Below, in pieces: positions 1 to 33,126 of a DNA stretch of 64,000 nt. The notes beneath the pieces were generated by a model. It made no database searches. It was given only the letters and a program-made list of their open reading frames with translations, and was not told where the DNA came from. The position numbers and the translations under genes were made by a program. Numbering within the stretch: the stretch's first letter is position 1; every line of letters begins with the position of its first letter. This DNA comes from Physcomitrium patens (Eukaryota > Streptophyta > Bryopsida > Funariales > Funariaceae): assembly GCF_000002425.4 (NCBI RefSeq), contig NC_037263.1, forward strand, positions 11,968,951-12,032,950, written 5' to 3'.

Positions 1-3000
1 AGAGAAGACAAAATCTTTCACATCCTTCCACATTTGGGGCCACCAAAAATCTCGGGAAATAAGCTCCAAGGTCTTGTTGAATCCAAAATGTCCCGCAGCT
101 AGAAAATCATGGCGAGATTGAAGAACTCGGAGTCGTGCTAGTCCTTTTGGAATGTACAATCGCTCTTCAAAGTATAAAAGATCTCCCTCCACCTTGAACT
201 TGTCGTCATTGGTATGTTGCTTGATATCAATGGCTACTGAATCTTTAATGGTCATAGCACGTACCTGGTTTAGGAAGTCAGCATCAAATGATACAATAGT
301 AGTACAAAGTTGAAATCTCTCTGGCTTTAATAACGTTGTACATTGTTGATCAAACACTGCTTCTCCAACCTTTGGTGCAAGATACGATCTCCTTGATAAA
401 GCATCGAATAGTCCTTGTTGTCTTCCAGGTCGATAAGTGATAACAAAATCGAATCTAGATAGCGACATATTCCACCGAGCTTGACGCCGATTTAAAACTC
501 GAGCCGTCATGAAATACTCCAAATTCTTGTGATCCGTATATACGGTTACTGGATGTGCAACTCCTTCAAGAAAGTGACGCCATTCTTTGAAAGAATCCAC
601 TACAGCAAGAAGTTCCTTATCGTGGATCTCATAATTGATTTCAGCAACAAAGAACTTCCGAGAATAAAATGCAACTGGATGGAGCTTCTTATCTTCACTC
701 ATTTGTGAAAGCACAGCTCCCAAAGCAAAATCTGAAGCATCAGTTTCTAAATAAAAGGCCTTTGTAAAGTCTGGATGTACCAAAATCGAGTGAGAGGAGC
801 AGCAACTTGAGAATAATTCTTGATGAAGATCCGATAGAAGTTAGCAAAACCAAGAAAGCATTGTACGTCTCTAACCGTCTTCGGAACCTCCCAAGACATG
901 ATTGCTTCTACTTTCTTGGGATCCATCTTCAAACCTTCTGTAGTCGCAATGAACCCCAAAAATTCCATCTCCGTCTGGTGAAATAAACACTTTTCTAATT
1001 TGGCATATAGTCCTCGCTTGCGTAGTTTCTCCAAGACCAAACGAACATGCTCCTCATGCTCTTCCTCGTTTTTAGAAAATATTAGAATATCGTCTAAGTA
1101 GATGACAATAAAATCATCGAGGTGTTCTCGAAAGATGTCATTCATCATATGTTGGAAAACCGCTGGAGCATTGGTAAGACCAAAAGGCATGACATTATAT
1201 TCGAAATGACCATACCTTGTACGGAATGCTGTCTTCCACTCATCTCCTTCCTTGATTCGTACGAGATTATAAGCTCCCCTTAGATCAATTTTTGTAAAGA
1301 TCTTCGCACGTCCAAGTTGTTCTAAGAGACTAGAAATCAAGGATAATGGGTAACGATTTTTCTTTGTTACCTTGTTGAGGCCTCGATAGTCCACACACAT
1401 CCGTAATGATCCATCTTTCTTCTTCACAAATAAGATGGGTGCTCCAGCTGATGATTTTGAATGACGAATGAAGTTCTTGGCTAGATTCTCATTGATGTAC
1501 TTTCGTAACTCTGCCAACTCCGTTTGCAATAGATTGTAGATTGGGCCAAAAGGTGGTTGTGCTCCTTCTTGCAAGTCTATGGCACAATCATATGGTCGGT
1601 GTTCCGGTAGTATGTCGGCATTCTTCTTTTGAAACACGTCTTCAAAATCTTTATATTGCTCCGGTATACTTGCTGTTGAGATCTTCTCCTCGGTAGTTGG
1701 AGCCGCATAAATGACAAATGAAGTACCTTCCTTAGATGATCTTATAAAGGCTCTTGCTCCAATGAATAAGGATTTCTTTTTTCGAGGTTTTTTACTAGGT
1801 TTTTTCTTGGGTGGTTTTGTGGGAAAAGTCATCTTCCGCAACCTCCAATCTATCAATGGATTGTGTTTTTCCAACCAAGAAAGACCAAGAATAATAGGAT
1901 TTGATGGGGTTCTAATAATATTAAAAATAATATGACTACTATGGTCTTTAAACGTTACTTCTATAGGTTTTGATTCATGGGTGATGCTACCAGACAATAA
2001 AGGTCGCCCATCTATGACCTCAATATGAACAAGTTTTGATTTTTGTACTAAAGAGATCTTATGACGCTTTGCAAATTCTTCGTCTAAAAAACAAGCAGAT
2101 GCTCCTGAGTCTAGTAGTGCTAAGGTTCTCAGTTTTTGAGGGCCGATAAACAGAGGGATTGTAAAACAAAGTGCAGGTTGGGCAGAAAGAAAGGAACCTG
2201 ATTGTTGTTGGGATATTTCATTGTCCAGCCGCACGGTTCTTATTGTGGCTGGGCATCCTCGTTTTCCTAAACAAATACTCCCCTAGTCTTGACTATGCCT
2301 AGATTTTGCTTTTTGGGGCAGTTTCCGACATTGTGGCCTTCTCCACCGCAATACAAGCATAAATTTTCTTCCATACGTCGCTTTTTTTCTTCTATAGTAA
2401 GAGATTTGATACGTACCACATCAATTTGCATGTCTTCCACCTCTGAATGCGAATTCACACCGCTTGCCGACATAGTTGGAGCATGGCGAATTGTATGTTG
2501 TCTTGAGCGTTGATCTTGGCGACGTTGGAATAGGCGATTATCGCACTTCACAGCTTGGCTAATGGCTTCATTGAGCGTTCGTGGATCAGGAAGAGTTAAC
2601 AACAAATCCTTCACATCATCTCTTAAACCCCAATAGAATTGACTCATCAACGCTTCTTCATCCCAATTGATGTCGTATACTAATTGCCTGAAATCCGAAG
2701 CATAGACTGATGTAGAACGCATCCCTTGTCGTAGCGACCGGATCTTTGTTGTAGCCCATCGAACCTTATCGTGTTCACCAAATGCTTCCGCAAATGCTTC
2801 CAAAAAGGTTTCGAAGTTGTTTAATATGGATGATCATTTCTCAAACAAAGGAGCAAACCATGATAGAGCTTGTCCCGTAAGTAAGGTTCCAACAAGCCCA
2901 ACACGTGACTCCTCCGTTGGATATCGTTCGGGCTGTAAAACTGTTATCAATCTGATTTGATTGACGAATCCTCAAAACTTGGAACGTGTTCCATCAAACT

Positions 3001-3497: not shown

Positions 3498-3705
3498 AAG
3501 AAAGAACTAGCTCTGATATCTCAAGTTAGTGTAGTCTCGACAAACTGTCACGGACACAAAATACAGACTTGAAATCTAATAAGAAGTTCAAGAAGAAGTG
3601 GCAGAACTAGATTAAACAGATGAGTACAAGAACAACACCAAAAAGGTGAGCTAGAACTCCAAGAGATATATTGTTGAGACTGAAGAACTCTTCAGCCTCG
3701 ATCCC

Positions 3706-3713
3706 TATATATA
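3706..3713 (-). promoter_or_regulatory. TATA box of element A LTR
   Basis: TATATATA followed on the element strand by GGG. It lies immediately downstream of the heat-shock-like array in element sense. The same CTATATATACT context is found in the LTRs of B (about 8,053), C (about 30,110) and F (about 35,800), which supports a shared promoter core. Confidence 0.6.
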
Positions 3714-3726
3714 CTCCTACTTAGGA

Positions 3727-4025
3727 AGCTTCTCGAGCTACTTCTATTAACTAGGAAGCTTCTAGAAGGTTCTAGAGGCTTCCTTTCTAGAAGGTTCTAG
3801 AAACTTCTCGAGCTACTTTTATTAACTAGGAAGCTTCTAGAAAGTTCTAGGGGATTCCTTTCTAGAAGCTTCTAGAAACTTCTCTTCTAGAAGGTTCCAG
3901 AGACTTCTTTTCTAGAAGCTTCTAGAAACTTCTCTCTAAAAGGTTCCAGAGGCTTCTCTTCTAGAAGGTTCCAGAGGCTTGTTTTCTAGAAGGTTCTAGA
4001 AACCTCTCTCTAGAAAGTTCTAAGG
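3727..4025 (-). promoter_or_regulatory. Tandem heat-shock-element-like array in the U3 of element A's LTR
   Basis: The 8-mer TTCTAGAA occurs exactly 12 times, starting at 3760, 3785, 3795, 3835, 3860, 3870, 3885, 3910, 3920, 3959, 3984 and 3994, with degenerate copies between. The array has a period near 25 bp and a larger 75-bp duplication containing CGAGCTACTT. Four pairs are 10 bp apart, giving the alternating nTTCnnGAAnnTTCnnGAAn pattern of plant heat-shock factor sites. In element sense the array sits upstream of a TATATATA box at 3,706-3,713. Sibling LTRs carry only one or two such units. The pattern is seen directly; binding by heat-shock factor is inferred. Confidence 0.7.
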
Positions 4026-4040
4026 AATATGTTCCTAACA

Positions 4041-7000
4041 ATTGTCAAGAAAGAGCTTAGCTATTTCTTCACTTGTGATAGATTTTGTACATGGTACAAA
4101 ATGTGCCATCTTAATAAAACGATCTACTATCACGAATATAGAATCATAAGAACCTGAAATTGGAAGATCCATGATAAAGTCCATAGAAACAGAAGACCAT
4201 GGTTGTTCTGGAATGTGTAATGGCTGAAGAAGTCCAAAAGGTCGATGACGAGGAGTTTTTGATCTTGAACAAACATCACATGATTGTACAAAATCTTTGA
4301 CTTCCTTTCACATTTGAAGCCACCAAAAATTCCTAGATATCGGCTCTAAAGTCTTATTATATCTAAAATGTCTTGCTGCTGGGAAGTCGTGACGAGCTTG
4401 AAGAACATGTAAACGTGCTTCTCCTTCTGGAACATATAGGCATCCTTTGAAATAGAGTAGGTTATTCTTGAATTCAAATCTAGAGGGATCATGAGATTTA
4501 GAAGAATTATTCTTGATATCATGAATAAGAGGGTCTGAAGACATACTTAACTAGACTTGCTTAACAAAAGTTAAATCAACAGTCAATGTTGATTTTATTG
4601 CTTGAAGGTGAAATTGCTTCGACTTTAAGAGAACCGTTCTTTGTTGCTCAAAAGCTGCATCTCCTTCTTTTGGTGTAAGATAAGAACGTCTAGACAAGGC
4701 ATCGGACAAACCTTATTGTTTTCTCTTACCGATAAGTGATGATGAACTCGAATCTTGATAAAGACATGCTCCAATGAGCTTGACAATGATTTAATACGTG
4801 TACTGACATAAAATATTCGAGGTTCTTGTGATCCGTATACACGGTGATTGGACTAGAAGCGCCTTCTAGGTAATGATGCCTTTCTTGAAAAGAATCCACA
4901 ATTGCAAGAAGTTTTTTGTCGTGGATCTCATAATTGATTTCTGCTACTGAGAATTTTCTTGAATGAAAGGCTACTAGATGAAGTTTGTCATCTGTTCCCA
5001 TTTGTAATAAAACCGCACCCAGAGCAAAGTCTGATGCATCTGTTTACATAAAGAATGCTTTGGAAAAATCAACACAATACAAGATTGGTGCAGAAACAAA
5101 TGCTGTCTTCAATGATTCAAAAGCGACTTCCGCTTCTTGATTCCATTGGAGTTTGTCTTTACAAGTCAAACGTATAAGTGGAGCTGCAACTCGAGAGAAG
5201 TCTTTGATGAAGATTCGATAGTAGTTGGCAAATCCCAAAAAATATTGGACATCTCTTACCGTTTTTGGGATCTTCCAATCTATAATAGTTTGAACTTTCT
5301 TAGGATCCATCATAAGTCCATCATTTGAAATGATGTAACCTAAGAAATCGACTTGAGTAGTATGGAATACATACTTTTCTATCTTCGCATAGAGCCTTGC
5401 ATCTTTTAATTTTTGTAACACGTGACGAACATGAAATTCATATTCTTCTGTATTCTTAGAATAAATCAAGATGTCGTCTAGATAACAGACCACAAAATCG
5501 TCTAAAAAACTCTCAAAAAACATCATTCATTAAATGTTGAAAAGCTGCTGGTGCATTTTTAGTCCAAAAGGCATGACGTTGTATTCAAAATATTCATACC
5601 TAGTTCAAAATGCAGTCTTCCATTCATCTCCTTCTTTGATGCATACTAGATTGTATGCTTCTCGAAGATCTATTTTTGTATAGATCTTAGCTTGATTCAG
5701 TTGATCAAGAAGTCCAGATATTAAAGGTAGTGGATACCTATTCTTGATGGTAATCTTGTTGAGTCCTCGATAATCAATACACATCTGCAATGATCTATCT
5801 TTTTTCTTCACAAATAGAATTGGAGCTCCTGCTGAAGATTTTGAATGGCGTATAAAATTCTTGGCTAGATTTTCTTCAATATACTCCTTGAGTTCAGTTA
5901 ACTCATTTTGTGATAAACTGTAGATTGGTCTGAATGGCGGTTGTGCTCCTTCTTGAAGGACAATTGAGCAATCATAGGGACGATGTTCCAAGAGTATATC
6001 TGCATTCTTTTTTTCGAATACATCTTGAAATTCTTGATATTGGCTTGGAATGCCACTTGAAGTCGTTTCACCAGTAGAAACACGTGTGGCATAAATAATA
6101 TATGGTGATTCTTTCATAGCAGCATGCAAAATAGCTTTTGCACCTATAAATATGGGTTTAATTTAACTGAACTTATGACTCTCTACTTGATTAATTACAC
6201 TGTTAGTTATACTTTTAGAGAAAGTAAGAGTTTGGAAAATCTAATCTATTTGAGGGTTGTATTTTTCTAACCACGATAAACCTAAAATGACTAGATTAGA
6301 GGGAGATCTAATGATATTAAATACTACAAAACTATTATGACTATTGATTATTACTTCTATAGGAAGGGTTTTGTGAGTAATATCTTCAGAAGACAATGGA
6401 CGACCATCTATGACTTCTACATGAACAGGTTTAGTTTTCTTTTCTAAAGATATGCTATATCTTTTAGTAAATTCTTCATGTAAAAAATATGCTGAGGCTC
6501 CTGAATCTAACAAGGCAGAGACTTTGTAATGTTTAGGTCCTAACATAATATTTAATGTAAAATAAGGAGAGGGCTCTGAGGAGAGAATAGGACCTTTACT
6601 AGATGTTGTGCAAGGTTTCAGCTACACGGTCCTTATTGTAGCTAAACAAACTCGTTTTTCGACATATTGTCTTCTTTCACAGCCATACTCCTCATTTTGT
6701 GATTACGTCATTTCTTTGGATAATGTTGAGCAGTGTGCTTTGGTTTTCCACAATATAAACATAATCCTTCTTGACGACGACAAGTCTTTTCTTGCTCAGT
6801 AAGAGGTTTGAAACGTACTGCATCAATTTGTATATCCTCTACTTCCGAATGTATGTGTTGAAGAGGTGTTGGTATTGCCATTGAATTATAGTAACGTTGA
6901 GGTTGGTTCTCAGATCGGAATTCAAAAAGGCGATTGTCGCACTTCACAACAAAGTCAATTGCTTGACTCAATGTTTGAGGATCAAGTAAGTTGAGTATTA

Positions 7001-8404
7001 ATTTTTTTACCTCATATTGTAATCCGTAGAGAAATTGGCTAATAAGTGCAGCATCATCCCACTTGATATCAGTTGCAAGTTCTCAAAATTGTGAAGCATA
7101 TAACGTTATTGATCGATTACCTTGTCGTAAAATACGGATCTTATTGGTTGCAACATGAATTGTATCATGCTCTCCATACATGGATCGAAACTCTGCCAAA
7201 AAAGCCTCTAGATTATCCAATATTGGATCTCGTTGTTCAAGAAAAGATGAAAACTACGATAGTGCTGAACCTGAAAGAAGCATACCAATGAATCTAACTT
7301 GCGATCCTGGAGTTGGATAGCTTTGGGGTTGAAGTTCTATCACAAGTTGCACTTGATTGATAAATCCTCGAAACTTGGATTTGGTACCATCAAACTTCTC
7401 GGGTAGGGCAATTCTTGGTTCTCTAACACTGGAAGGGCGTTCCACTATAGGAGAAAGGACATGGTTTGGTGCAGATGTTGAAGCAGCTCCAACCATTTCT
7501 ATATCTTAACTTCCTGTCAATCTTATTATTCCTTATAGTGGTAAATTGAGTTGATGCATCGCAAGCATTAACTCCCTCAATTGCTCTTGTATTTGTGCCA
7601 TTGCACTCTTCATTTCAACAAGTTTTGCCATGATAACATTTAGAAGAGAAAAGATGTCTAATATCACTCAAGACAAATAGAAGAGAGGACTTGGGAACAA
7701 AGAAAATACTAAGGGCAATATCAGTTTAGAAGAGGGTAATCCGTAACTTCTAATATGCTTATATCTTATCAAGAAAAAGAGGTAATCCACTCTTAATCAA
7801 GATTAGACAAAGCTCTGATATTGTAGGTGTACTCTTGTTAATCTGTCAAGGACAAAAATTTGATGAAAAATCAATTCAGACAAGTGAGCCTTTACTCAAA
7901 GAAAGTTAATAAAATATAAATAAATAAGTATGTATATTGAAAGAGAAACTAGAATGGCTATTGCCAAAAGACAAGAAAACTAGAGATCCTTGAAACTAGA
8001 GTAGAAGCAAGAAAAGAGTTGACAAAAGTGAAGAAGGCTTCATTCTTGTCTCTATATATACTATCTAACTAGGGGCTACATGGCGACATTCTATAGGACC
8101 CCCAATATGTGTTGACTTTGTAGGACACATGCCTTGACTTACAAGGCAAGTTTTTCTATTTGTGGACCGCACAGTTAGCTTGATCTTCAAGCTAACAACA
8201 TGTGTGGCACATGGCCAACTTGTTGACCACGTTTCTAATCCAAAAAGTCAATTAAAGACACTTATGAAGTCAAAGCAGCATCTATGAAGCTTCTAAGAAG
8301 CTTCCATATTAAATACTATAGAATTAACTTACTTTTATCTATTTTTACTTACTTCTATCTATTTGTATATGTAATTACTAGCTTACATGAGTATGTCCGT
8401 GACA
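4041..8404 (-). mobile_element. Element B: Tcn1-like Gypsy element, host of A
   Basis: Same family as A. Parts in element order: 5' LTR 7,844-8,404, PBS-like word 7,812-7,821, leader hairpins about 7,726-7,794, gag about 6,700-7,500 with a CCHC knuckle (CLYCGKPKHTAQH), protease ([11 protein letters not shown]) about 6,500, reverse transcriptase about 5,200-6,050 with YLDDILIYS, RNase H about 4,730-5,050, and integrase about 4,041-4,550. The rest of integrase and the 3' LTR lie beyond element A, left of the window. It is broken, with roughly ten breaks, so inactive and older than A. It is inserted in the pol region of element C. Confidence 0.86.
7844..8404 (-). repeat. 5' LTR of element B
   Basis: 561-bp LTR bounded on + by TGTCAAGGACA and TGTCCGTGACA, an 11-bp nearly perfect terminal inverted repeat. 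A TATA-like word lies near 8,053. A single heat-shock-like cluster (GAAGCTTCTAAGAAGCTTC) lies near 8,286. Immediately right of 8,404 the sequence becomes the integrase end of element C. Confidence 0.82.
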
Positions 8405-10786
8405 CTGCCTTCCACATTTTCGGCCACCAAAAATCCTTAGATATTACTTCCAAAGTTTTATTGTATCCAAAATGTCATACTGCTAAAAAGTCATGATAAG
8501 CTTGAAAAGCATGTAATCGAGCTTTACCTTCTGGAACATATAGGCGTCCTTCAAAATATAATAGATTATTCTTCAATTCAAACTTGGAAGTATCATGGGA
8601 CTTAGAGAAAGTATCCTTGATATCCTGAACAAGAGAATCAGAGGACATGCTTGATTGAATTTGATTCACAAATATTGAATCAATAGTTAATGTTGATTTG
8701 ATAGCTTGAAGATGAAAATGCTCGAGCTTCAAGAGAATTGATCTTTGTTGATCAAAAGATGCATCTCTTTCTTTTGGTACAAGATAAGAACGTCTAGAAA
8801 GAGCATTCGATAGACCTTATTATTTTTGTATCGATAAGTGATCTTGAAATTGAATCTAGATGACGACGTGTTCCAACGAGCTTGACAACAATTCAAGATA
8901 GGTGTGACATGAAGTACTCAAGGTTCTTATAGTTTGTATACATGGTAATTGGACTTGAGGTGCCTTCTAGATAATGATGCCATTCTTAAAATGAATCCAT
9001 GATTGCAAGGAACTCTTTATCATGGATTTCATTATTAATCTTGGCTATTGAAAATTTCTACAACTTGAAAGCTATTAGGTGGAATTTGTCATCTATTCGT
9101 ATTTGTGACAACACAATACCTATAGCAAAATCTGACGCGTTTGTTTCCATAAAAATTATCCTGGAGAAGTCAATACAATATAAGATTGGTGCAGAAGTAA
9201 ACTCCTTTTTTAAAGCATCAAATGATGCTTGTACTTCTTTATTCCATTCAAGTTTGTCTTTACAAGTCAAACGTGTAAGTAGAGCTGCAACTTGAAAAAA
9301 ATTCTTAATGAAGATTCGATAGTAATTAGCAAAGCCCAAAAAGCATTGTACATCTCGTATTGTTTTTGGAATCTTCCAATCTATGATAGTTTGAATCTTC
9401 TTAGGATCCATCATAAGACCTTCGTTGAAAATGACGTACCCTAAAAAGTCAATTTGAGTAGTATGGAATAAATACTTTTTTAACTTGGTATATAACCCTG
9501 CATCTCTAAGTTTCTGTAACACATGGTGTACATGAAGCTCATATTCTTTTGTGTTCTTAGAGTAGATTAGAATGTCATGTAAATAGCAAACAATAAAATT
9601 ATCTAAAAACTCACTAAAAATATCATTCATAAGATATTGAAAAGCGGTCGATGCATTCATGAGTCCAAAAGGCATGACATTATATTCAAAATTTCCATAC
9701 CTAATTTGAAAAGCAGTCTTCCATTCATCTCCTTCTTTGATACGAATTAAGTTGTATGCTCATTGTAGATCTATTTTGATATAGATCTTTGTTTGATTGA
9801 GTTGGTCAAGAAGTCCTGAAATCAAAGGCAAAGGATACCTATTTTTGTTAATTATCTTGTTGAGTCCTCAATAATCCACACACATTTGCAGAGATCTGTC
9901 TTTTTTCTTCACAAATAAGATAGGAGCCTCGGCTGGAGATTTAGAATGGCGTATGAAGTTCTTTGTCAAATTTTCATTAATGTACTCCTTTAATGCAGCT
10001 AACTTATTTTAAGATAAGCTATAGATTAGTCTAAATGTTGGTTGAGCTCTTTCTTGCAGATCAATTGAACAATCATAAGGTCGATGCTCAAAAAGAATAT
10101 CTACATTTTTCTTTTCAAAATGTCTTGGAATTCTTGATATTGATTAGGAATATCACTCGATGTTGTTTCACTATTAGAAATAGATGTAGCATATATAGCA
10201 AAAGATAATCCTTCTTTTGCAATATGCATGAAAGCTTTTGCACCTACTAGTAAAGGTTTGGATGTACTGGACTTACGTACTTCTACTTTACTAACGCAAT
10301 CTTGGATTATACTATTAGAAAAGTTAAGGTTATGAGAAATCTAATCTATTTGAGGGTTATATTTTTCTAGGCATGATAATCCTAAAACAATCGGATTAGA
10401 GGGAGATTTTATTACATCAAATACTATTACATTGTTATGATCATTAATTGCTACATCTAAAGGAATAATTTTATGAATAATATTTCTACGAGACAACGAA
10501 CGACTATCTATGACTTCTACATGTACAAATTTAACTTTCTTCACTAAAGATATTTTTTGATTTTTGGCAAAATCTTCGTCTATAAAACATGCTGAGGCTC
10601 TTGAATCAAACAAAACAAAGACTTTGTGATTATTAGGTCCTTTCAAATAAATGATTGTTGCATGCAATGGCTTAAGTAATAAATTCTTCTAAAGAATCTA
10701 CTCTAGGCATTGTTAATGATAAATCTTTGATGCTATCCTTCAATTCATATCAAAATTGGTTGATAAGTATTTTATCGTTCCAGTCT
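8405..10786 (-). mobile_element. Element C, left segment (integrase to gag), Tcn1-like Gypsy
   Basis: Same family as A and B. In element order from the right: gag end about 10,680-10,786, protease about 10,560-10,640 (ACFIDEDFAK), reverse transcriptase about 9,400-10,100, RNase H about 8,930-9,200, and the start of integrase about 8,405-8,730. It is broken, with ten or more breaks. Element B interrupts it at the left edge and element D at the right edge; the gag resumes at 28,311. It is older and more AT-rich than A and B. Confidence 0.83.
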
Positions 10787-10791: not shown

Positions 10792-11188
10792 ATTGTATTA
10801 CGTGCTTTCTTGCTTGAGAACGCGCCGGGCATCTGGCTGTAGAAGGTAGTATGGAGATTCGTGAATAGTCAAGCAGTCTATCAGTTTTTGACTGTTAGAA
10901 TATAAACGACTACAAGAATACACCGTAAATCTATATGGATTCCCCTTCGACTGCTCGTCGAAGTCCTTTTCATCCCGGTCGGTAGGTCTCTAAACGTTAC
11001 AGAGAACCCCGAACAACCCAAACTGTTAATCTTTGATACCGCTTTGTACTTACAATCTTGTATCCACTGACTGTCTTGTTAGATTAACCCAATAAATTTC
11101 ATTCACTCCGCATACTCAATCCTATAGACACCCTTTTAATTCTTCAATCTCAGACGTAACTCGATTTCACAAAACAGTCAAGAGTAAT
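10792..11188 (-). repeat. Left LTR of element D, outer part
   Basis: Matches the first 400 bp of the right LTR (from 26,982) with about two dozen differences. The sequence stops at AGAGTAAT where element E entered and resumes after the second GTAAT at 20,978-20,982. Confidence 0.88.
11184..11188. repeat. Left target-site duplication of element E (GTAAT)
   Basis: GTAAT is repeated at 20,978-20,982. The uninterrupted right LTR of element D reads AGAGTAATCAAACCC at the matching place, giving the pre-insertion site directly. Confidence 0.95.
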
Positions 11189-11897
11189 TGTGATTGTCGT
11201 TTTACTTACTCTAACTTATCTAATCAGAGTAAACCTGTATAGGGGAATTCGAACACAGGGAAAGAATACCGCATGAGCTTACACGTTAGGGTCACACAAT
11301 TAACTGTATTCCGCACTACTTAAAACATCCAGGAAACACTACAATGCTTTCCACTTCCTAATAATACTCCACCATCACTGATAACAACAACATGTAATCC
11401 CGCACTATCCTAAATGACAGGACATAATCATACTATAATCCAAATTCTGGAGTTCTTCACCATTAACTGCCTTCACATTACAGTGTTTCACACAAACACA
11501 GACTCATTCTCTCTGCTGAACTACATTCAGATTTCAGCATTCAATCTCTCTTCTTCTCATTCAATAACATATAATTCCATTCACACTTTCATTCCATGAT
11601 TCACTTCACAATATTCAGAAACTCTCAATACTCTTATTTCAAAGAACATAACAACAAAAGAAAAGAAGTAGCACCAAGCTTACCCCGGCTCACACTATCA
11701 CAGTAATGGCCCCTACTTCCTCTCTCCCATCCTCCTTATGCTACCACGAGATACCAACTGCTACATCTCTAATGAAAACTGCTTTTCCTAACTATTCATC
11801 CATTTTACCTACTGAACTACCTTTTCAACAGTCATCTATCCCTGTTTACACTATGAACTAAGTATCTACAATTCAACAAATAACTACTTATTCTACA
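11189..11897 (-). repeat. 3' LTR of element E
   Basis: 709 bp, from TGTGATTGTCG to TATTCTACA on +. Identical to 20,269-20,977 except for one base by direct comparison. It carries no gene of its own; a 61-codon frame inside it is repeated in the other LTR and has no recognisable features. Confidence 0.95.
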
Positions 11898-13886: not shown

Positions 13887-16800
13887 TTAGGTATTATATA
13901 ATCGTAAACGATTTCCATTAATGCGGGTACTGAAACGATGGCCCGTGAAATCCTCCAATTGAACAGACCCATTGGAAAATCCTTCAATTACGCGATATGG
14001 CCCATGCCAGCGAACTTGAAATTTTCCCGGAAAATGGTTGAATCGGCTGTCATACAGCAATACCAAATCATTGGGCATAAAACACTTCGGCCGCAGTTTA
14101 CTATCATAGTAACTCTTCCTCCGTTTTTGAGTGGCTTCCATGTGGAATAGAGCGACAGCCCGTATTTCATCCAATTCCTCCAATTTCATCAACCGAGAGT
14201 GTAATGACTCAGTGTCACTGAGGCGTTCGTCTAAGGCAATTCGTAAACTGGGAACCTCCAATTCGATAGGTAAAATTGCCTCTTGACCGTAAACTAATTG
14301 GAACGGAGTAGAGTGGGTAGTTACCTTATAGGCGGTACGATAAGCCCACAAAGCTGCAAAGAGTTTGGTCTCCCAATCAGTACCGGCCCCTGAAATTGTC
14401 TTAGTCAAGACTTTGCACAAAATGCCGTTGGTCTTTTCCGTTTGCCCATTGGCACGAGGATGGTAGGGAGTGGTCTTACGATGCTTGATCTCATATGTGG
14501 TCGTCAAGGCGGCGATGGTAGCATTGATGAAATGGGTGCCTCGATCGCTGACCAATTCCTTGGGACACCCAAAGCGAGTGATAATATTCTCATACAGAAA
14601 AGTTGCCACCGTACTGGCATTATCGGTGCGGGTAGCAATCGCCTCTGCCCATTTGGTGACATAATCGGTGGCGACTAAGATATACCGCTTTTGACCAGGT
14701 TTTGACGCTGGTGCAATGGGACCAACAAAATCAATACCCCATTTTTCAAACGGAACCTGGGCCAAGATTGGGACTAACGGCATGGCGGAAGTACCCGTAG
14801 ATCGACCAATTCGTTGACAAGGATCACAACGGCGAACGAACTGGTGGGCATCAGAAAACATTGTGGGCCACCAATATCCGGCCATTAAAGCCTTGTGGGC
14901 AGTGCTGTCTCCCACGAAATGACCACCACAACTATCCAAATGACAACCTGTAAGTATCGACTGTACTTCACTGGGAAAGATACAGCGCCGTAAAAGACCA
15001 TCGCGTCCTTGTTTATACAAAGCATCACGAATCATCGTGTATGGGGCACTCTTCAGAATAAGGCGCTTCTTAAGCTTGTCCGTGAAAGTCGGCGGAAAAG
15101 TATGGAAGGTCAGAAACTGAATAATTTCGCTATACTCGGGGGATATCACATCCACCACAAATAATGCGGCGTCGGGAAGATCATCGGGAACAGGCTCGTT
15201 GCCGAGAATATTAGACAACCGGGATAAATGATCTGCGTTCGCATGTTGCTTCCCAGGTCTGACAACCACCGTAAAATTGAACTCCTGGAGGAGTAAGACC
15301 CAGCGAGCAATGCGCCCACTCAATTGAGGCTTATTAATCAGATATTTGAGGGCATCATGATCCACATAAAATACAAACGGATACCCAAGCAAATAGTGCC
15401 GAAATTTTTTAACCGAGTATATCATACCCAACGCCTCTCGTTCAGTAGTAGTATAGTTGCGTTCGGCAGCCACCAATTGTCGACTGGCATAATATATTGG
15501 ATGATCGAATCCCTTATCATCCTTCTGGCTTAACACCGAGCCAATAGCAGCATTGGATGCATCAACATACACATGAAATGGCTTTGTCCAACAAGGAGCC
15601 ACCAATATTGGTGCAGAGACCAATTTTGACTTTAAGACCTCGAAGGCTACGGTACACTCCTTGGTCCAGAGGGGACTAGTACCATCGGACGGAGGTTTCT
15701 TCAGTAAGTTCGTTAAAGGTTGACAAATAACCGCAAACGAACTTATAAATCGTCGATAATAACTGACATGACCAACGAACCCTCGAACACCGGAGACTGT
15801 CTCCGGTCTGGGCAAGTTCATGATATGCTGCACTTTGTCAGGATCTGTAGCAATACCACGACTGGAAACAATATGGCCCAATAATTTTCCGGACGGAACA
15901 CCAAATTGGCACTTCTCCGAATTCAACGATATTCCAAATTTGGCACACTGAGCCAAACATTTGCCTAAACAATGAAGATGATCTTGTTTGGTACTGAATG
16001 TACAAAAGTCATCTAAAAAGATCTCCATAAATAGTCGGAGATAATCTTGAAAAGCCTGAGTCATCACGCATTGGAACGTGGCTGGGGCGCTACATAACCC
16101 GAAAGGCATCACGCGATAAGCAAATGTGCCCCAATCCGTAGTAAAGGTTGTCTTGAGCTGGTCTTCTTTTGCAATTTGAACTTGATTATACCTGGAGAAA
16201 CCATCGAGAAACGAATAGCATTCGTGACTGGCGACGGCGTCCAATATACTATCCGTGAATGGTAACGGAAAGTAATCTTTCTTGGTGGCTGCATTAAGTT
16301 TTCGGAAATCTTGACAAATTCGGATTTTTCCGTTCTTTTTCGGCACCATCACAATTGGAGAAACCCACTCACTATTCGGTACCGGGTAAATGAAACCCAC
16401 CGCAAGAAGCTTGTCCAATTCTTCCTTCACCATAAGGGAATATTTAGGATTAAGGCGATGTTGCCTCTGGCGTACCGGTTTAGCGTTTTCTTCCAATATG
16501 ATACGATGTTCACAGACATCAGTGGGGATACCTTGTAGATCATTATAAGTCCAAGCAAAAGCGGATTTATGATGTAAGAAAAAGTCTGTCCAACAGGTCA
16601 ACTCTTGTTCCTTAATACCTTCGTAGACCTTAATTAGCCGAGGTTCGGCCGTGGTCGCTAAGTTAATAGTTTGACATACAGGGTCAGCAACAATATTCTG
16701 TTTCAATTCCCGCAGTGATTTAAAGTTACTCGGTATGTCCGACATATGCGAAGTAACGAATCCCGTCTCGAGGGCACTAACATGGTGCACATCGTACCCA

Positions 16801-19800
16801 GGTTTCCAGTCAATACTTACATAAGCAGAGTTTTCCGAATCCTTCGGGTATATCAAGTACTCCCCCGGACCTCCACATTGGTACACCACCTCAGGGTGCT
16901 GTGCTGCCTCCACATTGGCCTCCGTACTCGGTACTTCTGTGTCATCATCGGAGCTAAGCCCTTCGTCCGACGTCAATTCAGATACTGGCAACTGAGACTC
17001 CCCGTGATAGCGTACTGGGTACATTTGTAACACCATTTTATCTACGCCCTTACCAATTGTCAAAGTACCTCGACCCCAATCGTTCTTGGCCTTCGCTTGA
17101 TACAGCCAGGGTCGTCCCAATAAAATAGGGTACGATAAAGTCGAACGTTGTAAGCGAAAGACAATGTAGTCAATTTCATAGGCAATACCTGCAATTATAG
17201 TTTGAACACTCCGTAAAATACCCATTGGCTTAACTCGGCTATGATCTGCCATCCGTAATACCAATGTCGTGGGGACTAATTGTTCCAGACCTAAAGCATC
17301 CATTGTATCAGCGTTCATTAAATTGACGCTGGAACCTCCATCTACCTGGACGCCAGAGATCCGAACACCATCAATCGAAACATCAATGGTTGGTGCACCT
17401 GGATCAGGGTTCAAACTAACTTCACAAACTTCCATATTACGATGCCGATGTCTTGTTAGGGATGAATTCAAGGTGGAACGACACTCTGGTGCGACTGCTA
17501 GAAGTTGCTTCATAGAGATTGAAGGCCGAATAGCGTCCAAATCCTTTAAAATGTCGTAGGGTTCCATATTTAGGGTAATTCCCAATGCCCTCTTCCGTTT
17601 CATGGGTTTGAGCTTAACTCCGTGAGGTAATTTATTCTGCCGCCCTGGACTTGGAATTGGAACAGCAGATTGAGCTTCCTTGGGACTTCCTTTCCCAAGG
17701 GGATCTTTCAACGGGTATGATGCTTCTTGGAACTGTGGTGGGAAAAGACCGGTTCGAGACGGAACTGAAGACTCCGTAATTGGGACCTCATTGGGCTTCG
17801 CAACCAAATCAGGGCTCAAGACTTTCCCAGTTTCCGGGCCTGAATGGGATTGGTCCGTAATTGGGTGTGATTGGCCCTTCGCTTTAGGATCTTCCAAATG
17901 TTTAATTGGGCCTTTCCCTTTTTGCTGGCTCCTAGTAAGAACGGTATGGATACATTCCACCCGATTTACTGGAGAGTCTTGAGGTCCTCGATTTATTCCC
18001 TCCATTTTTCCTGGACTCTGGATCTGCTGATCCCGATTATTGAAATTGAATGGAGCATTACATTGCTGATACGTATGCCCTGACTGCTTGCAATTCCCAC
18101 AAACTGGGGCATAATCGTCACTGGCTCTTGGATTGGGACATTCATTGGCATAATGACCAATCTGTCTACAACGGAAACAACGCAATGGCCTTTTTGCACC
18201 CCCATCAGGCATATTGGGTGTCTCCACCGGTATATACCTACTAGGTTTGTTCCATGTAGGTTGAGAAAACGATCCTGGTTGTCCCGGTTGTACTTGGTTC
18301 AATGGCATCGATGGAGCATATGGCTGATACCCATGCTGCTCCTTACCATAGTTCCGAGGATTTGATACAAACCCCTCACTATAAGTGGAATTCTGAAAAT
18401 GATTGACTGCTCGATTTTGTCGGTTAGATCGATTTCCATGCCATCCAAACGTATTTCCTGTTTGAACTTGATTGACATCCCATGGAGTTGGTGGAATCAT
18501 GGTCGGATTACTGAATTGATGTTGTCTTTGCAAATTCCAACAATTAGCGGTTAAGTGCTTGCCTCCACAAAATGTACATTTACCCAACACTTGTGAAGGT
18601 GACGGGCATTCCGTTACCAAATGACCGTGGCCCTGACAATTACTGCACCATACATTGGTCCTAGTATTGGTTGGCTTTTGCCTCTTCTCCTTATCTTTGG
18701 CCATATTAACGGCCATTTCCTCCATTTTCTTCGTCAAGTTCAATAACAAGGCTTCATTGGAATCTTTTGAAGCTGATATTATTTGTTTTTCCGCCAAAGT
18801 TGACTCGTGTGTTTGATATGGAAAATATGGGGCATACGCTGTTGTTACTTGCGGTGGTAAAGCTTGCAATGGGGTAACATTAACTGGCCCCTGAGTATTG
18901 GCACTTGACTGGGCAACTGTTTCGATCATCTGTGGATAACTACCCACTGATCCGTTCAAAGCCGGATATTGATAATTGCTTTGAACTGGTATCATCGTGG
19001 CACACGCAGTTAAAAACTGATCATAATGGCATTCCTCCCAAACCTTGGCTCTATCAAGGGATGCAGATATCGTAACTGGTTGAGCTTCTTTTACAAACAT
19101 TTTTAGCTCTGGTGGGTGCAAACCATTTATTAATATAGATAATATAAATGCCTCCGGCATTTGGTGGTTCGGCCACTTACTAAGTATATCAGCCACTCGG
19201 CCATAGAATGATTCCACCGCCTCTCCTAGGATCATTTTGCTGTTCATTAACCTTCCTCGAAGACGGTCTTTAAAACCAATTGGTCGAAAACGGGTCAAAA
19301 ATGCATTCTTCAATGCTTCCCAGTTCGAAAATTGACCAACTGGTTGACGGTTATACCATTCAAACGCCGTATCCTTTAAGGTTGCTGGCAACCATCGTAA
19401 CCAAATATCCTCGGTTCTCCCATTATTGGCGACACATGCTGTCAAAAACTGCGACAAATGTTGATCTGGATCCGCACCCGGAAAACCCCTAAAGGTAGGT
19501 AATGGAGCCACGCTAGTTGTGCAATCACTCACAGTACCCATTTGTACTGCTATGGGAACCGCTGGACCTCCCGTCGTCATTGAATTTGACAATGTGACAC
19601 TTAATCGTTTGTTAATATAGTCTGCGTCTCTCCTAAATATATTTTCCGAACTTTCCACCCTGCTCAATTTGCTATTATTATCCTTGAACAAGTTTATTGG
19701 TTGAATAGGAGGTGAGAATGACGGATTTTGAAACACACTGAATTGGCCCTTATTGACCAATAATTTATGCCACTCTATGGAACCAGTTTTGACGGAATCG

Positions 19801-20156
19801 GCAGTTTCCGCTATTGGAAACGTACCCAATGGAGTACCCAACTCTTCTGTGATTCCCCCACTCTCAGTTAACGGTCTCAGAAGAAACCCTGGCCTATTGA
19901 TCAAATTTTCAGCAAGTGCTCTTGGCAATTTCTCTAACGGTATATACTTCTGAAATATTAAATGTCGATTAGCTTCTGGGTATGCTCGAATATGACGACA
20001 GGCATGCAACCATGGCTTAATCCAGCTTTGTCTATGATTCCTTTTTAACTTTCTTTGTTGCTCGTTTCGCAACAAATTTCTTGCTTGCGATCTCTCTATT
20101 CTTTCTCTTGACTGCCGTATTTTCTTTACTGTTAAGTTCTCATTCTTAATAACCAT
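13887..20156 (-). CDS. Element E gag-pol polyprotein, 2,089 aa
   Basis: One long frame. Domains in order: gag about residues 220-390 (GFPGADPDQHLSQFL, FEWYNRQPVGQFSNWEALK); four CCHC-type zinc knuckles at about 503-518, 527-539, 660-673 and 686-699; aspartic protease around 937 (VDGGSSVNLM, a DGGS variant of the usual DSG); reverse transcriptase about 1,250-1,420 with FLDDF at about 1,377; RNase H about 1,500-1,620 (VYVDASNAAIGSVLSQ); integrase with its HHCC zinc site about 1,740-1,780, a D,D,E core from about 1,808 (WGIDFVGP) and a GPY/F-like end (GKFQVRWHGPYRV). The FLDDF box and the LLYDSRFNHFPGK end are typical of the Athila/Tat branch. There is no chromodomain. Gag and pol are fused in one frame. 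Confidence 0.95.
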   Translation of the reverse strand: MVIKNENLTVKKIRQSRERIERSQARNLLRNEQQRKLKRNHRQSWIKPWLHACRHIRAYPEANRHLIFQKYIPLEKLPRALAENLINRPGFLLRPLTESGGITEELGTPLGTFPIAETADSVKTGSIEWHKLLVNKGQFSVFQNPSFSPPIQPINLFKDNNSKLSRVESSENIFRRDADYINKRLSVTLSNSMTTGGPAVPIAVQMGTVSDCTTSVAPLPTFRGFPGADPDQHLSQFLTACVANNGRTEDIWLRWLPATLKDTAFEWYNRQPVGQFSNWEALKNAFLTRFRPIGFKDRLRGRLMNSKMILGEAVESFYGRVADILSKWPNHQMPEAFILSILINGLHPPELKMFVKEAQPVTISASLDRAKVWEECHYDQFLTACATMIPVQSNYQYPALNGSVGSYPQMIETVAQSSANTQGPVNVTPLQALPPQVTTAYAPYFPYQTHESTLAEKQIISASKDSNEALLLNLTKKMEEMAVNMAKDKEKRQKPTNTRTNVWCSNCQGHGHLVTECPSPSQVLGKCTFCGGKHLTANCWNLQRQHQFSNPTMIPPTPWDVNQVQTGNTFGWHGNRSNRQNRAVNHFQNSTYSEGFVSNPRNYGKEQHGYQPYAPSMPLNQVQPGQPGSFSQPTWNKPSRYIPVETPNMPDGGAKRPLRCFRCRQIGHYANECPNPRASDDYAPVCGNCKQSGHTYQQCNAPFNFNNRDQQIQSPGKMEGINRGPQDSPVNRVECIHTVLTRSQQKGKGPIKHLEDPKAKGQSHPITDQSHSGPETGKVLSPDLVAKPNEVPITESSVPSRTGLFPPQFQEASYPLKDPLGKGSPKEAQSAVPIPSPGRQNKLPHGVKLKPMKRKRALGITLNMEPYDILKDLDAIRPSISMKQLLAVAPECRSTLNSSLTRHRHRNMEVCEVSLNPDPGAPTIDVSIDGVRISGVQVDGGSSVNLMNADTMDALGLEQLVPTTLVLRMADHSRVKPMGILRSVQTIIAGIAYEIDYIVFRLQRSTLSYPILLGRPWLYQAKAKNDWGRGTLTIGKGVDKMVLQMYPVRYHGESQLPVSELTSDEGLSSDDDTEVPSTEANVEAAQHPEVVYQCGGPGEYLIYPKDSENSAYVSIDWKPGYDVHHVSALETGFVTSHMSDIPSNFKSLRELKQNIVADPVCQTINLATTAEPRLIKVYEGIKEQELTCWTDFFLHHKSAFAWTYNDLQGIPTDVCEHRIILEENAKPVRQRQHRLNPKYSLMVKEELDKLLAVGFIYPVPNSEWVSPIVMVPKKNGKIRICQDFRKLNAATKKDYFPLPFTDSILDAVASHECYSFLDGFSRYNQVQIAKEDQLKTTFTTDWGTFAYRVMPFGLCSAPATFQCVMTQAFQDYLRLFMEIFLDDFCTFSTKQDHLHCLGKCLAQCAKFGISLNSEKCQFGVPSGKLLGHIVSSRGIATDPDKVQHIMNLPRPETVSGVRGFVGHVSYYRRFISSFAVICQPLTNLLKKPPSDGTSPLWTKECTVAFEVLKSKLVSAPILVAPCWTKPFHVYVDASNAAIGSVLSQKDDKGFDHPIYYASRQLVAAERNYTTTEREALGMIYSVKKFRHYLLGYPFVFYVDHDALKYLINKPQLSGRIARWVLLLQEFNFTVVVRPGKQHANADHLSRLSNILGNEPVPDDLPDAALFVVDVISPEYSEIIQFLTFHTFPPTFTDKLKKRLILKSAPYTMIRDALYKQGRDGLLRRCIFPSEVQSILTGCHLDSCGGHFVGDSTAHKALMAGYWWPTMFSDAHQFVRRCDPCQRIGRSTGTSAMPLVPILAQVPFEKWGIDFVGPIAPASKPGQKRYILVATDYVTKWAEAIATRTDNASTVATFLYENIITRFGCPKELVSDRGTHFINATIAALTTTYEIKHRKTTPYHPRANGQTEKTNGILCKVLTKTISGAGTDWETKLFAALWAYRTAYKVTTHSTPFQLVYGQEAILPIELEVPSLRIALDERLSDTESLHSRLMKLEELDEIRAVALFHMEATQKRRKSYYDSKLRPKCFMPNDLVLLYDSRFNHFPGKFQVRWHGPYRVIEGFSNGSVQLEDFTGHRFSTRINGNRLRLYNT

Positions 20157-20248
20157 ACTCTTTCATTATATTCTTCTGCGACTGCTACCTATTTCCCATC
20201 TACTTCAACCGGCAGTTAAAACCTAACACTCCATGCTATTATCAATTT

Positions 20249-20265: not shown

Positions 20266-20268
20266 AAA

Positions 20269-20977
20269 TGTGATTGTCGTTTTACTTACTCTAACTTATC
20301 TAATCAGAGTAAACCTGTATAGGGGAATTCGAACACAGGGAAAGAATACCGCATGAGCTTACACGTTAGGGTCACACAATTAACTGTATTCCGCACTACT
20401 TAAAACATCCAGGAAACACTACAATGCTTTCCACTTCCTAATAATACTCCACCATCACTGATAACAACAACATGTAATCCCGCACTATCCTAAATGACAG
20501 GACATAATCATACTATAATCCAAATTCTGGAGTTCTTCACCATTAACTGCCTTCACATTACAGTGTTTCACACAAACACAGACTCATTCTCTCTGCTGAA
20601 CTACATTCAGATTTCAGCATTCAATCTCTCTTCTTCTCATTCAATAACATATAATTCCATTCACACTTTCATTCCATGATTCACTTCACAATATTCAGAA
20701 ACTCTCAATACTCTTATTTCAAAGAACATAACAACAAAAGAAAAGAGGTAGCACCAAGCTTACCCCGGCTCACACTATCACAGTAATGGCCCCTACTTCC
20801 TCTCTCCCATCCTCCTTATGCTACCACGAGATACCAACTGCTACATCTCTAATGAAAACTGCTTTTCCTAACTATTCATCCATTTTACCTACTGAACTAC
20901 CTTTTCAACAGTCATCTATCCCTGTTTACACTATGAACTAAGTATCTACAATTCAACAAATAACTACTTATTCTACA
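20269..20977 (-). repeat. 5' LTR of element E
   Basis: 709 bp, one base different from the 3' LTR. Followed by the second GTAAT target duplication (20,978-20,982), after which element D's LTR resumes. The gag-pol start lies about 110 bp inside, so the leader is very short. Confidence 0.95.
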
Positions 20978-29735: not shown

Positions 29736-30459
29736 AAAATCCACAAAGAAGGGTAATCCACTCTCTTTAAGAAAAAGTTCAATGTTAAAAAACAAGATTT
29801 TTCGTTTAAACGTGGGTAGTCCGCAACCTTCAAAATACAACAATAGAAGTGAAATAATCCACTCACTTCTAAAACAAGACAAAAATAATATGTTAGCACT
29901 TTTGTCAAAGTGTCAAGGATATAAATCTCAAAGAAAGAGAATCCTCAATACACTCTTCTATCACTAAAGAGAACTAGAAAGTCACTCAAAAGGTGATGTA
30001 ATATTAACTAGAATGGCTATTGCCAAAAACAAGAAGACTAAAAAGTCTTGAAATAAGACTAAGACTAGAAAGGCATTGACAAGATTGAAGAAGGCTTCAC
30101 TCTTGCCTCCATATATACTATCTAACTAAGAGCTACGTGGCAATGTCTTATAAGACCTTCAACATGTATTGACTTTGCTAGCCACATGTCTTATCTCGCA
30201 AGGCAAGTTATCTATATATGCGCTATGTAGTTGGTTTGTTCTAAAAGCTACTACATGGAGGTAACTTGTTCTATAAGCTATCAATACATGGTTAGCTTTT
30301 TGGCTAAGTTTCTAACCTATAAATACATCTAAAGTCAAAATTGCATCTATGAAGCTTTTAGGAAGTTTCTCTAGAAGACTTTATGAAATTATTCTATATT
30401 TACTTACTTCTATTTAAACATATAAGTAACTATTGAGGTAAATGTATATATCCATGACA
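29736..30459 (-). mobile_element. Element C, right segment (leader and 5' LTR)
   Basis: Leader 29,736-29,910 with hairpins, the best pairing AGAAGTGA (29,845-29,852) with TCACTTCT (29,863-29,870). The LTR is 29,911-30,459 (549 bp), beginning TGTCAAGGATA and ending ATCCATGACA on +. A TATA-like word lies near 30,110, and heat-shock-like TTCTCTAGAA near 30,368. Right of 30,459 lies the integrase region of element F, so C is inserted in F. Confidence 0.82.
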
Positions 30460-31836
30460 AGTAATCTATGATAGCAATAGATGTTGTCTATGAAGAATTT
30501 AGCTATTCTTTCATTTGTGATAAGTTTTGTACATGATACAAAATATTCCATCTTTGTAAAATAATCTACAATCACAAATATGGAATCATATGAACTTGAA
30601 ATTGGAAGATTTGTGATAATATCCATAGAGATAAAAGATCATGGTTGTTTTGGTATAAGTAATAGTTATAAGAATCTATAAGATCAATGACGAGGAGTTT
30701 TTGATCTTCAACAGACATCACATGTCTGCACAAATTTTTTAACAATCTTCTACATTTGAGGCCACCAAAAATCTCTAGATATAAGCTCCAAAGTCTTATT
30801 ATATCTAAAATTTCCTACTACAGGAAAATTGTGACGAGCTTGAAGAGCAAGTAATTGTGCTTCTCTTTTTGGAACATATAAGTGTCCTTCAAAATAGAGT
30901 AAGTTTTTCTTAAACTCAAATTTGAAAATATCTTGAGACTTAGAAGAATTATTTTTAATATCATGAATAAGAAGGTTTGAGGACATACTTGCTTGGATCC
31001 GCTTGAAAAAAGTCAAATCAATAGTCAATATTGATTTCATTACTTGGAGATGAAATTGTTTGGCTTCAATAAAATTATCTTTTCTAGTCAAAAGCTACTT
31101 CTCTTTCTTTTGGTATAAAATAAGAACATTTAGAAAGAGCATGAGACAAACCTTGTTATTTTCTTGGCCAATAAGTGATATTAAACTCAAATCTTGATAA
31201 AGACATATTCTAACAAGCCTAGTGACAATTCAAAATACTTGTTGATATGAAATACTCGAGATTCTTGTGATTCATATATATGGTGATTGGACTTGAAGCG
31301 CCTTCTAAATAATGACGTCATTCTTAAAAAGAATCCATAATTATAAGAAGTTTCTTGTCGTGGATCTTATAATTAATCTTGGCTACTAAAAAATTTCTTG
31401 AATAAAAACCTACTAGATAAAGTTTGCCATTTGCTCCTATATGTAATAAGATTGCACCCAAAGCAAAGTCAAATGCATCTATCTCCATAAAAAATACTTT
31501 GAAGAAGTCAACATGATACAGGATTGATGTAGAAGTAAAAGGTTTCTTCAAAACTTCAAATGATACTTCTGCTTCTTTACTCCACTTGATCTTGTCTTCA
31601 CAAGTCAAGCATGTAAGTGGCGCTGTAACTTGAGAAAATTTTTTGATGAAGATCCAATCGTAATTGGTAAATTTCAAAAAGTATTGTACATTTCTTATTA
31701 TTTTTAGAGTCTTCTAATCTATGATTGTCTGAAATTTTTTAAGATCCATCATTAGACCATTGTTTGAAATGATGTATCTTAAGAAGTCAACTTGGATAGT
31801 ATAGAATATACACTTTTCTATCTTGCCGTACAATCC
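30460..31836 (-). mobile_element. Element F, left segment (integrase to RT), Tcn1-like Gypsy
   Basis: Integrase core and zinc region about 30,460-31,090 (MDIITNLPISSSYDSIFVI and RYNKTLELISRDFWWPQM), RNase H about 31,270-31,500, and the C-terminal half of reverse transcriptase to about 31,836. Same family as A-C. It is broken, with well over ten breaks, and clearly more AT-rich. Element C interrupts it on the left, and a 1.29-kb unidentified sequence interrupts reverse transcriptase on the right. Confidence 0.8.
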
Positions 31837-33126
31837 TGCTATCAGGGTAGAGAGAGTTTGCCTCAAGAAAGCACTGGACTTCTTGCTACCACTAAATACT
31901 CAATCAAGTCCAAGATATTAAAATACCAATTTTATATAAATAATATTTTTTGGGGGCAATTACATCAATACATAAGCCAAGTACCAAGAGAACATCCAAA
32001 TGTATGATAAAGTATCCTAAAACCTTATATATCCTTATAAAAAATGTTTCTTAAACTTCAAAAATTCATATCTCACGATTGGACCATCTAAAAAACCTAA
32101 AATTTTATATAAAGTATTGGTATACTATCAAAAGCTACCATAAAAAAATTCAACTATAAATTCATTACGAATCTTGAAATATCACTAAAATCCTAACAAT
32201 AGCTTTAAACCCTAGCTTACATACACCCATGTACTATTTTCTTTATATCTCACAAAATAAGTATTCAAATATCTTGAAACTTTGATCTATAGCTTTTAAT
32301 CTAATAAATTATACTTACAAAAATTTTGAATAAAAAATTCGTCCAAAAACTCAAGATATGGCTCCAACCATTACTATCAACAAAATGACTCACTTATTGC
32401 CTTTGAATTACATGTGCTATTTTCAATGCCCTATAACTCCTTTATCTAAACTTGGAATTAGTCAAATAATATATGTGAAGTATAGCCAAGAAATTTTTCT
32501 CTCCAATTCCAATTTCTGATCTTTCATTGCTCTCCGTACGCATATGTTATGCTTCAAAGAAAAATAATAGGTACAAATTTGACACCTTAACTTTGAACAC
32601 CTATATCTCCTTCATAAAAAATCGAAATCATACAAATTCTTCACCCAAATTATATCCAAAATCCTGAAATTTTTGACCCTAGCCTCCAAAGCTCAAATGC
32701 CTTCGAAAGAGAGACCCTAATCCCTAGTAAGGCCTTGGACAGCCTCCTTGAAATCCATTGGGCATGGCCTTCGACCAATAGGAATGAAGTTTTTCATTTC
32801 TTGCCTTCATCCAACCATGCCTTGCTTTCATTCCTCCCAATAAGCCTCTTACTAGTTAAGAATTTCTTCTTTAGGCTCTAATCTCCTCTCAAGGCTTCAT
32901 ATTAAACATTTAGGTTCTAATCTCCTCTCAAGGCTTCATATTAAACATTTAGATTCTATAATTTTTTTTTAAATGCTATAATTAAAAAAATAAAACTCAA
33001 AATAAAGTTTCTTAAATCCACTCTCTTTAAATTAATCTATTGACTATTCTAACATACACCAAGACTTATGAACATATTATATGTTCTAATTAATTTTTAT
33101 ATACTAAAAATATTTATAATATGACA
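31837..33126. repeat. 1.29-kb unidentified insertion inside element F, possibly a solo LTR
   Basis: Element F's reverse transcriptase homology stops at CAATCC and resumes at CCGCATCTCTAAG. The inserted 1,290 bp start TGCTATCAGG and end TATGACA, which would fit TG...CA LTR ends, but I find no convincing target duplication and no coding capacity. It contains a 39-bp tandem repeat (32,881-32,919 and 32,920-32,958, starting ATCTCCTCTCAAGG). It is not a member of either LTR family named above. Confidence 0.5.

Follow-up and report, generated by a model that had tools for sequence, protein, structure and literature searches.

The window, a 64,000-nucleotide stretch of the P. patens genome, contains at its left end the 5' part of a retrotransposon (element A), whose long terminal repeat (LTR) carries a long array of putative heat-shock elements (Table 1). 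The ends of this LTR were fixed by comparison with the element's own 3' LTR, which lies just beyond the left edge of the window (in L011), and with 15 further LTR pairs. The two LTRs of element A are identical at 488 of 495 positions, all seven differences being transitions (K2P 0.014). Beyond the window the coding region continues with RNase H and integrase (L011:6590-7840) and with the C terminus of the integrase (L011:5852-6586, minus strand), which exhibits a Tf2-1-like SH3 domain and a chromodomain (Chromo PF00385, E 1.6e-15); a polypurine tract (AAAGGAGGGGATGA) precedes the 3' LTR. The domain order, gag followed by protease-RT-RNase H-integrase, together with the chromodomain, assigns element A to the Ty3/Gypsy chromoviruses. 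This supports the original prediction of a Gypsy chromovirus in a bryophyte (the host is a moss) with the array in its U3 region. Identity of element A with ONSEN / ATCOPIA78 itself was considered and ruled out, as element A is a Gypsy element with a chromodomain and not a Copia element. The protein search with the reverse transcriptase (RT) found 7955 relatives among 7956 scored candidates; the best of the 120 listed are unnamed and 83% identical, and those with a name come from frogs, plants, algae and fungi. No relatives of the RT were found in viral contigs.

Table 1. Features of element A and its surroundings in the window (positions in the window; L011 is the sequence just left of it)
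Feature	Position	Strand	Remarks
5' LTR of element A	3546-4040	-	495 bp, TG...CA; element reads toward lower coordinates
Target-site duplication ACAAT	4041-4045	minus-strand reading	5 bp, at the site where an older element is broken; same bases after the 3' LTR in L011
gag fragment, open frame	2267-2833	-	PF03732, E 6e-10
Protease and reverse transcriptase, open frame	747-2282	-	PF00078, E 1.5e-40; PF08284, E 7e-6
RNase H and start of integrase	1-840	-	runs off the window; same frame as L011:6590-7840
U3 heat-shock-element array	3725-4020	-	period 25 bp; two-box sites at either end
Alternating-box chains	3984-4001, 3959-3971, 3910-3932, 3885-3897, 3860-3882, 3830-3847, 3785-3807, 3755-3772	-	
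TATA box TATATATA	3706-3713	-	11 bp beyond the last box in the element direction
Predicted transcription start / self-primer	3671-3681	-	AGTCTCAACAA in the window copy; 32 nt from the TATA start
Predicted primer-binding site TTGTCGAGACT	3533-3543	-	begins at the third base past the LTR
Older element B	4046-8404	-	interrupted by element A, in B's integrase frame (read by eye)

Analysis of the U3 region revealed 12 exact copies of TTCTAGAA within 3760-4001, four times arranged as pairs at a distance of 10 bp (3785/3795, 3860/3870, 3910/3920 and 3984/3994), in agreement with the counts originally claimed. The entire window contains 14 copies against 2.7 expected, a number that none of 100 shuffles reached. 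Tandem Repeats Finder reported periods of 25, 50, 74 and 75 across 3725-4022, and TATATATA follows in the element direction, so the assertion of a 25-bp tandem array upstream of a TATA box also holds. Read on the minus strand, the LTR comprises eight heat-shock chains, i.e. series of strictly alternating nGAAn boxes (three chains of five boxes, three of four and two of three, 33 boxes in total). The alternating TTC/GAA pattern is thus stronger than had been proposed: dinucleotide shuffling of the LTR (3520-4039 in this test), repeated 2000 times, gave at most 2 chains and 6 boxes, and none matched the observed values. The rest of the 64 kb contains one more chain, of three boxes, at position 4951. 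The classical heat-shock consensus, CTnGAAnnTTCnAG, is matched exactly eight times within the array, and the six chains of four or five boxes place at least four adjacent alternating nGAAn upstream of TATA, in the manner of ONSEN. The motif GAAGSYTCTAGA has ten matches in the window (both strands counted), all ten of them in the LTR of element A; according to the available part of PMC7073223 (Table 1) it is the common motif of rapidly heat-induced P. patens genes (49 sequences, HSFA1E). The array unit itself is a perfect five-box element, which fits this motif of the host's own heat genes.

The genome comprises 101 contigs with a total of 470.4 Mb, and the window lies on contig C11. A 26-base genomic primer of P. 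patens taken from PMC4228350 has exactly ten exact matches in this genome, its reversed control none; eight other primers or primer pieces from that paper are absent from the two of these ten loci that were examined, so the 26-base primer lies in a repeat. Exact TTCTAGAAGNTTCTAGAAACTTCT was found 2690 times in the genome, compared with none for the reversed control. The 100 listed places, all on C1, form 44 clusters, which were paired greedily at 2.5-15.5 kb into 20 pairs and 4 singles; 13 of the spacings are 5.6-5.8 kb. Extrapolation from the C1 clusters gives approximately 1,180 LTRs that contain exact TTCTAGAAGNTTCTAGAAACTTCT one or more times and approximately 540 pattern-bearing LTR pairs. 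From the C1 clusters and the window, 46 LTRs were delimited (45 distinct sequences); one of them, in L028, belongs to a subfamily without the 25-bp array, and both LTRs of another copy of that subfamily, in L043, were excluded. All 46 possess 3-9 chains of at least three boxes, with 12-36 boxes each, and all contain GAAGSYTCTAGA; since the loci were picked by the array pattern, these numbers describe array-bearing LTRs and do not give the share of LTRs lacking the array. The array is therefore a property of the family (hereafter the A family) and is not peculiar to the window copy. In U3, the distance from one GAA/TTC to the next is a multiple of 5 in 80% of cases on average (51% in the lowest LTR), as opposed to 10% in the R-U5 tail. 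The original prediction had named the presence of the same array in unrelated non-LTR repeats as an argument against it. No such repeats appeared in the 266 kb of fetched DNA, where all 203 chains of at least four boxes lie inside A family LTRs, most of the loci having been chosen by the array pattern; the other fetched DNA (237 kb) contains nine three-box chains and none longer. A separate search with the TTCTAGAANNTTCTAGAANNTTC pattern returned two viral contigs, in each of which the stretches examined contain two TTCTAGAA; we read this as chance.

Identical 5-bp target duplications flank 14 of the 16 first LTR pairs, the divergence between the two LTRs ranges from 0.012 to 0.087 (median 0.031), and the RT DNA of four A family copies is 96.9-97.9% identical to that of the window copy. 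Five C1 groupings have their LTRs 12-15 kb apart, and all three interiors examined contain another element nested inside an ordinary copy. As a side observation, L030 and L033 (C1, approximately 7.80 and 7.93 Mb) exhibit identical LTRs and identical following bases 130 kb apart, which could reflect either a segmental duplication or an assembly repeat.

How did the array originate? It had been proposed that it expanded in the window copy, as the youngest member of a stack of siblings whose LTRs (B, C, F and G) retain one or two units. The RT DNA at 5363-5810, 9438-9911, 33154-33540 and 36410-36642 is only 70-72% identical to that of element A, therefore the so-called siblings represent other families. 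Their LTRs are indeed array-poor, with chains of at most two boxes in the stretches taken as LTRs B, C, F and G, but these stretches contain no exact TTCTAGAA; a single copy, at 39350, is located on or immediately beyond the border of LTR G. In element B's own LTR (approximately 7830-8404) no chain exceeds two boxes. With at least three chains in each of the 46 delimited LTRs, expansion of the array cannot be attributed to the window copy, and this part of the proposal has to be abandoned. The window copy is young, as suggested, but not the youngest: one sampled copy has a K2P of 0.012, and another element of the window has nearly identical repeats. The latter, a Gypsy-type element, is delimited by LTR-like repeats at 11186-11897 and 20266-20977, which are 99.7% identical over 712 bp, hence it looks younger than element A. 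It contains a single frame of 2091 codons (13887-20162, minus strand) running from gag to integrase; a search with this 2091-aa sequence found 341 relatives, the 120 listed being mostly unnamed proteins and plant proteins, with Riccia sorocarpa as the best named bryophyte among them (54% identity over 37% of the query). Elsewhere in the window, at 30000-44000, G+C content drops to 0.20-0.34, and the observed/expected ratio of CpG is 0.07 at 40-44 kb, which would agree with heavy decay of old, methylated elements.

A closer relative of the A family is the subfamily found in L043 (LTRs at about 2462-2933 and 8525-8996) and as an LTR in L028 (945-1416), which shares the LTR ends of element A, with the RT DNA of L043 85% identical to that of A. 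Its U3 lacks the 25-bp array; it has one or two TTCTAGAA chains, with up to six boxes in L028, and carries GATTC and GAATATTC repeats. It is possibly an alternative version of a heat-shock U3. By analogy with ONSEN, whose heat-shock element originated from a two-box proto-element that was duplicated, according to the accessible part of PMC5059998, these comparisons would fit growth of the array within one branch from a two-box precursor.

The LTRs differ in length, and mostly by 25-bp steps or within one base of them: among the 46 delimited, 26 are 495 bp long, eight 420, three 445, three 446 and two 321, with one each of 530, 496, 472 and 421. In 6 of 16 elements (L012, L013, L016, L020, L021 and L025) the two LTRs differ from each other, by 35-75 bp, which indicates that the array changes during or after insertion; among five further LTR groupings one is unequal in length, and that one lacks a matching target duplication. 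Short tandem arrays are common in U3. This, and the 25-bp length steps even within one element, would be expected if the array were a neutral minisatellite, grown in U3 from chance TTCTAGAA/GAAGCTTC sequences and having no effect on transcription. In line with that explanation, no selection on the boxes was detected in eight elements, where columns with inherited differences are 5 in cores and 8 in spacers, compared with 17 and 40 for post-insertion differences (Fisher p 0.53; six pairs gave p 0.48). In 18 LTRs, differences from the window LTR per site per copy are fewest in box cores (0.019, as compared with 0.043 in spacers and 0.045 in the tail), but the copies had been chosen by a 24-base array pattern, and the post-insertion differences lean likewise (0.022, 0.033 and 0.026, respectively). 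As selection is undetectable, the neutral minisatellite keeps some probability, yet we regard it as unlikely. The repeated unit is in itself a perfect match to the heat-gene motif of the host, the array adjoins TATA, the family has by estimate 1,180 LTRs bearing the pattern, and the L028/L043 subfamily still retains heat-shock chains in a different U3.

The position of the array relative to the predicted start of transcription can be estimated from signs of self-priming. In Tf1-type chromoviruses the 5' end of the RNA pairs with bases just past the LTR to prime its own reverse transcription. Among 23 A family copies with a 5' LTR, 11 exhibit exact complementarity of 11-12 nt between (C)AGTCTCGACAA and the post-LTR bases at +3, in each case 31-32 nt from the TATA start, while 4 others match over 7-8 nt at this position. 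In the other eight, including the window copy, the longest exact match is 6-7 nt, lies elsewhere and is no better than in shuffles (mean 5.9 nt; 2 of 460 reach 10). AGTCTCGACAA occupies the self-primer position in at least 11 copies, and the window copy has one differing base in this stretch. The older elements B and F revealed no exact self-primer match of this kind. A candidate tRNA primer site, TATCAGAGC at 3510-3518, was dropped, as it lies 27 bp beyond the LTR and the self-primer match fits better. We infer that the A family has the arrangement of self-priming (Tf1/sushi-type) chromoviruses, with which it shares the complementarity of about 11 nt at the 5' end as well as the Tf2-1-like SH3 domain and chromodomain of the integrase; it differs from them in its moss host, and its mode of priming is predicted here from sequence. 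The match would place the start of the RNA at about 3681, and accordingly the heat-shock boxes would occupy about -45 to -340.

Together, these features suggest that the U3 of the A family is probably a heat-shock promoter, in which an array of varying length keeps its boxes in register upstream of TATA and the start site, and that the family is likely to be activated by heat. The window LTR presents eight heat-shock elements in 25-bp tandem on a common 5-bp lattice, adjoining TATA and a start presumably marked by the self-primer; upon heat stress the class A heat-shock factors (HSFs) of the moss would bind the array as trimers, leading to synthesis of element RNA. The array gains and loses mostly whole 25-bp units, presumably through slippage or unequal exchange, either at the DNA level or during reverse transcription. 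Such whole-unit changes keep the boxes in register and may vary the strength of induction among copies. Regulation by HSFs is favoured by the match to the motif of rapidly heat-induced host genes (PMC7073223, as far as its accessible part goes), the register of the boxes, the proximity of TATA and the presence of HSF genes. The genome contains eight matches to the HSF DNA-binding domain, so that, as in an ONSEN-like system, host HSFs are available.

Could the boxes serve another purpose? TTCTAGAA is palindromic and as such could suit another DNA-binding factor, or play a structural role, apart from HSF. We consider this highly improbable, as the alternating 5-bp lattice is what HSF trimers need, and the GAA-TTC spacers often vary among units (GT, CC, CT, GC; by eye), even though the inherited differences between copies exhibit no significant sparing of boxes despite this variation.

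A different possibility is that HSFs bind the array but drive basal, developmental or ABA-linked expression, or that class B HSFs repress it, with heat lowering or barely changing the output. Class B factors are present in the host: L045 (C21) encodes a two-exon HSF-B whose best named relatives are from Sphagnum (63%; 120 of 362 relatives listed, none of these 120 from Physcomitrium), with HSF B-4 among the best listed, and L049 (C22) contains a frame similar to it. The available part of PMC7073223 reports two heat-induced HsfB2-like genes of P. patens (Pp3c21_18820 and Pp3c22_9250). Published RNA-seq of three families of Gypsy LTR elements of this moss, RLG1, RLG2 and RLG3, one of which the A family may represent, is also relevant. 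According to PMC7466625, heat shock represses RLG1, whose transcripts are present in protonema without stress, both heat and ABA strongly induce RLG2, and no expression of RLG3 was detected; the text consulted gives no description of cis-elements for RLG1-3. Two of these three outcomes would tell against heat induction of the A family under the conditions tested there. The same text gives 5,092 complete elements for RLG1 and 529 for RLG2. With approximately 540 estimated pairs, an order of magnitude fewer than RLG1, the A family is unlikely to be identical with RLG1 as a whole, while its size is near that of RLG2. On the other hand, 25 of the 529 RLG2 copies are reported there to match RLG2 RNA at 80/80, a poor fit with the 96.9-97.9% RT identity of four A family copies. 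Moreover, LTR clusters of at least four boxes have so far correlated with heat induction, reaching up to a thousand-fold for clusters of four nGAAn in Brassicaceae, according to the consulted part of PMC5059998. HSF binding with an output other than heat induction is therefore, in our opinion, a quite unlikely alternative to the heat-shock promoter.

Heat-shock elements in LTRs have been described for several Copia elements, namely ONSEN, COPIA37, TERESTRA and ROMANIAT5, in the literature that could be consulted in part. ONSEN / ATCOPIA78 and the related Brassicaceae elements (PMC5059998 and PMC3907296, accessible in part) resemble the A family in having such elements in the LTR, but ONSEN is a Copia and not a Gypsy element, it has a cluster of four nGAAn (and, in A. 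thaliana, also a gap-type element) as compared with 12-36 boxes per LTR in the A family, mostly within a 25-bp array, and its heat response is proven, while that of the A family is predicted. The array of the window LTR, with its 33 boxes, is thus far longer than the cluster of ONSEN, as originally claimed. In Cryptococcus, TCN3 (Ty3/Gypsy) and TCN12 also have putative heat-shock elements in their LTRs, and their mobilisation is favoured at 37 C; however, these are fungal elements with two putative sites in TCN3, one in TCN12 and no array (PMC12810828, in its available part). Caenorhabditis Helitrons also carry many sites, with 9, 30 and 96 heat-shock elements in three insertions and almost two-thirds of the genome's heat-shock sites, according to the accessible text of PMC6927752, but they are DNA transposons for which HSF-1 binding and effects on host genes have been demonstrated. 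In the parts consulted of the open-licence literature, outside which most subscription papers lie, we found no report of such an array for any element of a moss or for a Gypsy element of any plant.

The sequence feature is real and striking, and the mechanism is of an ordinary kind at an unusual dose. Heat-switched retrotransposons are a textbook example of how mobile elements borrow the stress response of their host. The proven plant cases in the literature consulted in part are Copia elements with few boxes. The A family, a Gypsy family of high copy number whose LTRs each contain dozens of phased boxes, would allow heat output to be related to array length across hundreds of natural copies, in a host that is very likely the best genetic model among mosses and for which heat RNA-seq has been published (PMC7073223 and PMC7466625, both available in part). 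Approximately 1,180 LTRs, each containing at the median six sites of at least three boxes, would amount to approximately 7,000 strong HSF sites, possibly most of those in the genome. It is conceivable, though we put it forward only tentatively and with considerable doubt, that the array acts as an adjustable heat-shock enhancer, whose consequences would include mobilisation of the family in heat and either an HSF sink during heat or a response of neighbouring genes. The A family would also show whether this abundance of HSF sites attenuates or rewires the response of the host, and if the enhancer interpretation is true, neighbouring genes may gain a heat response, as with the Helitrons of nematodes.
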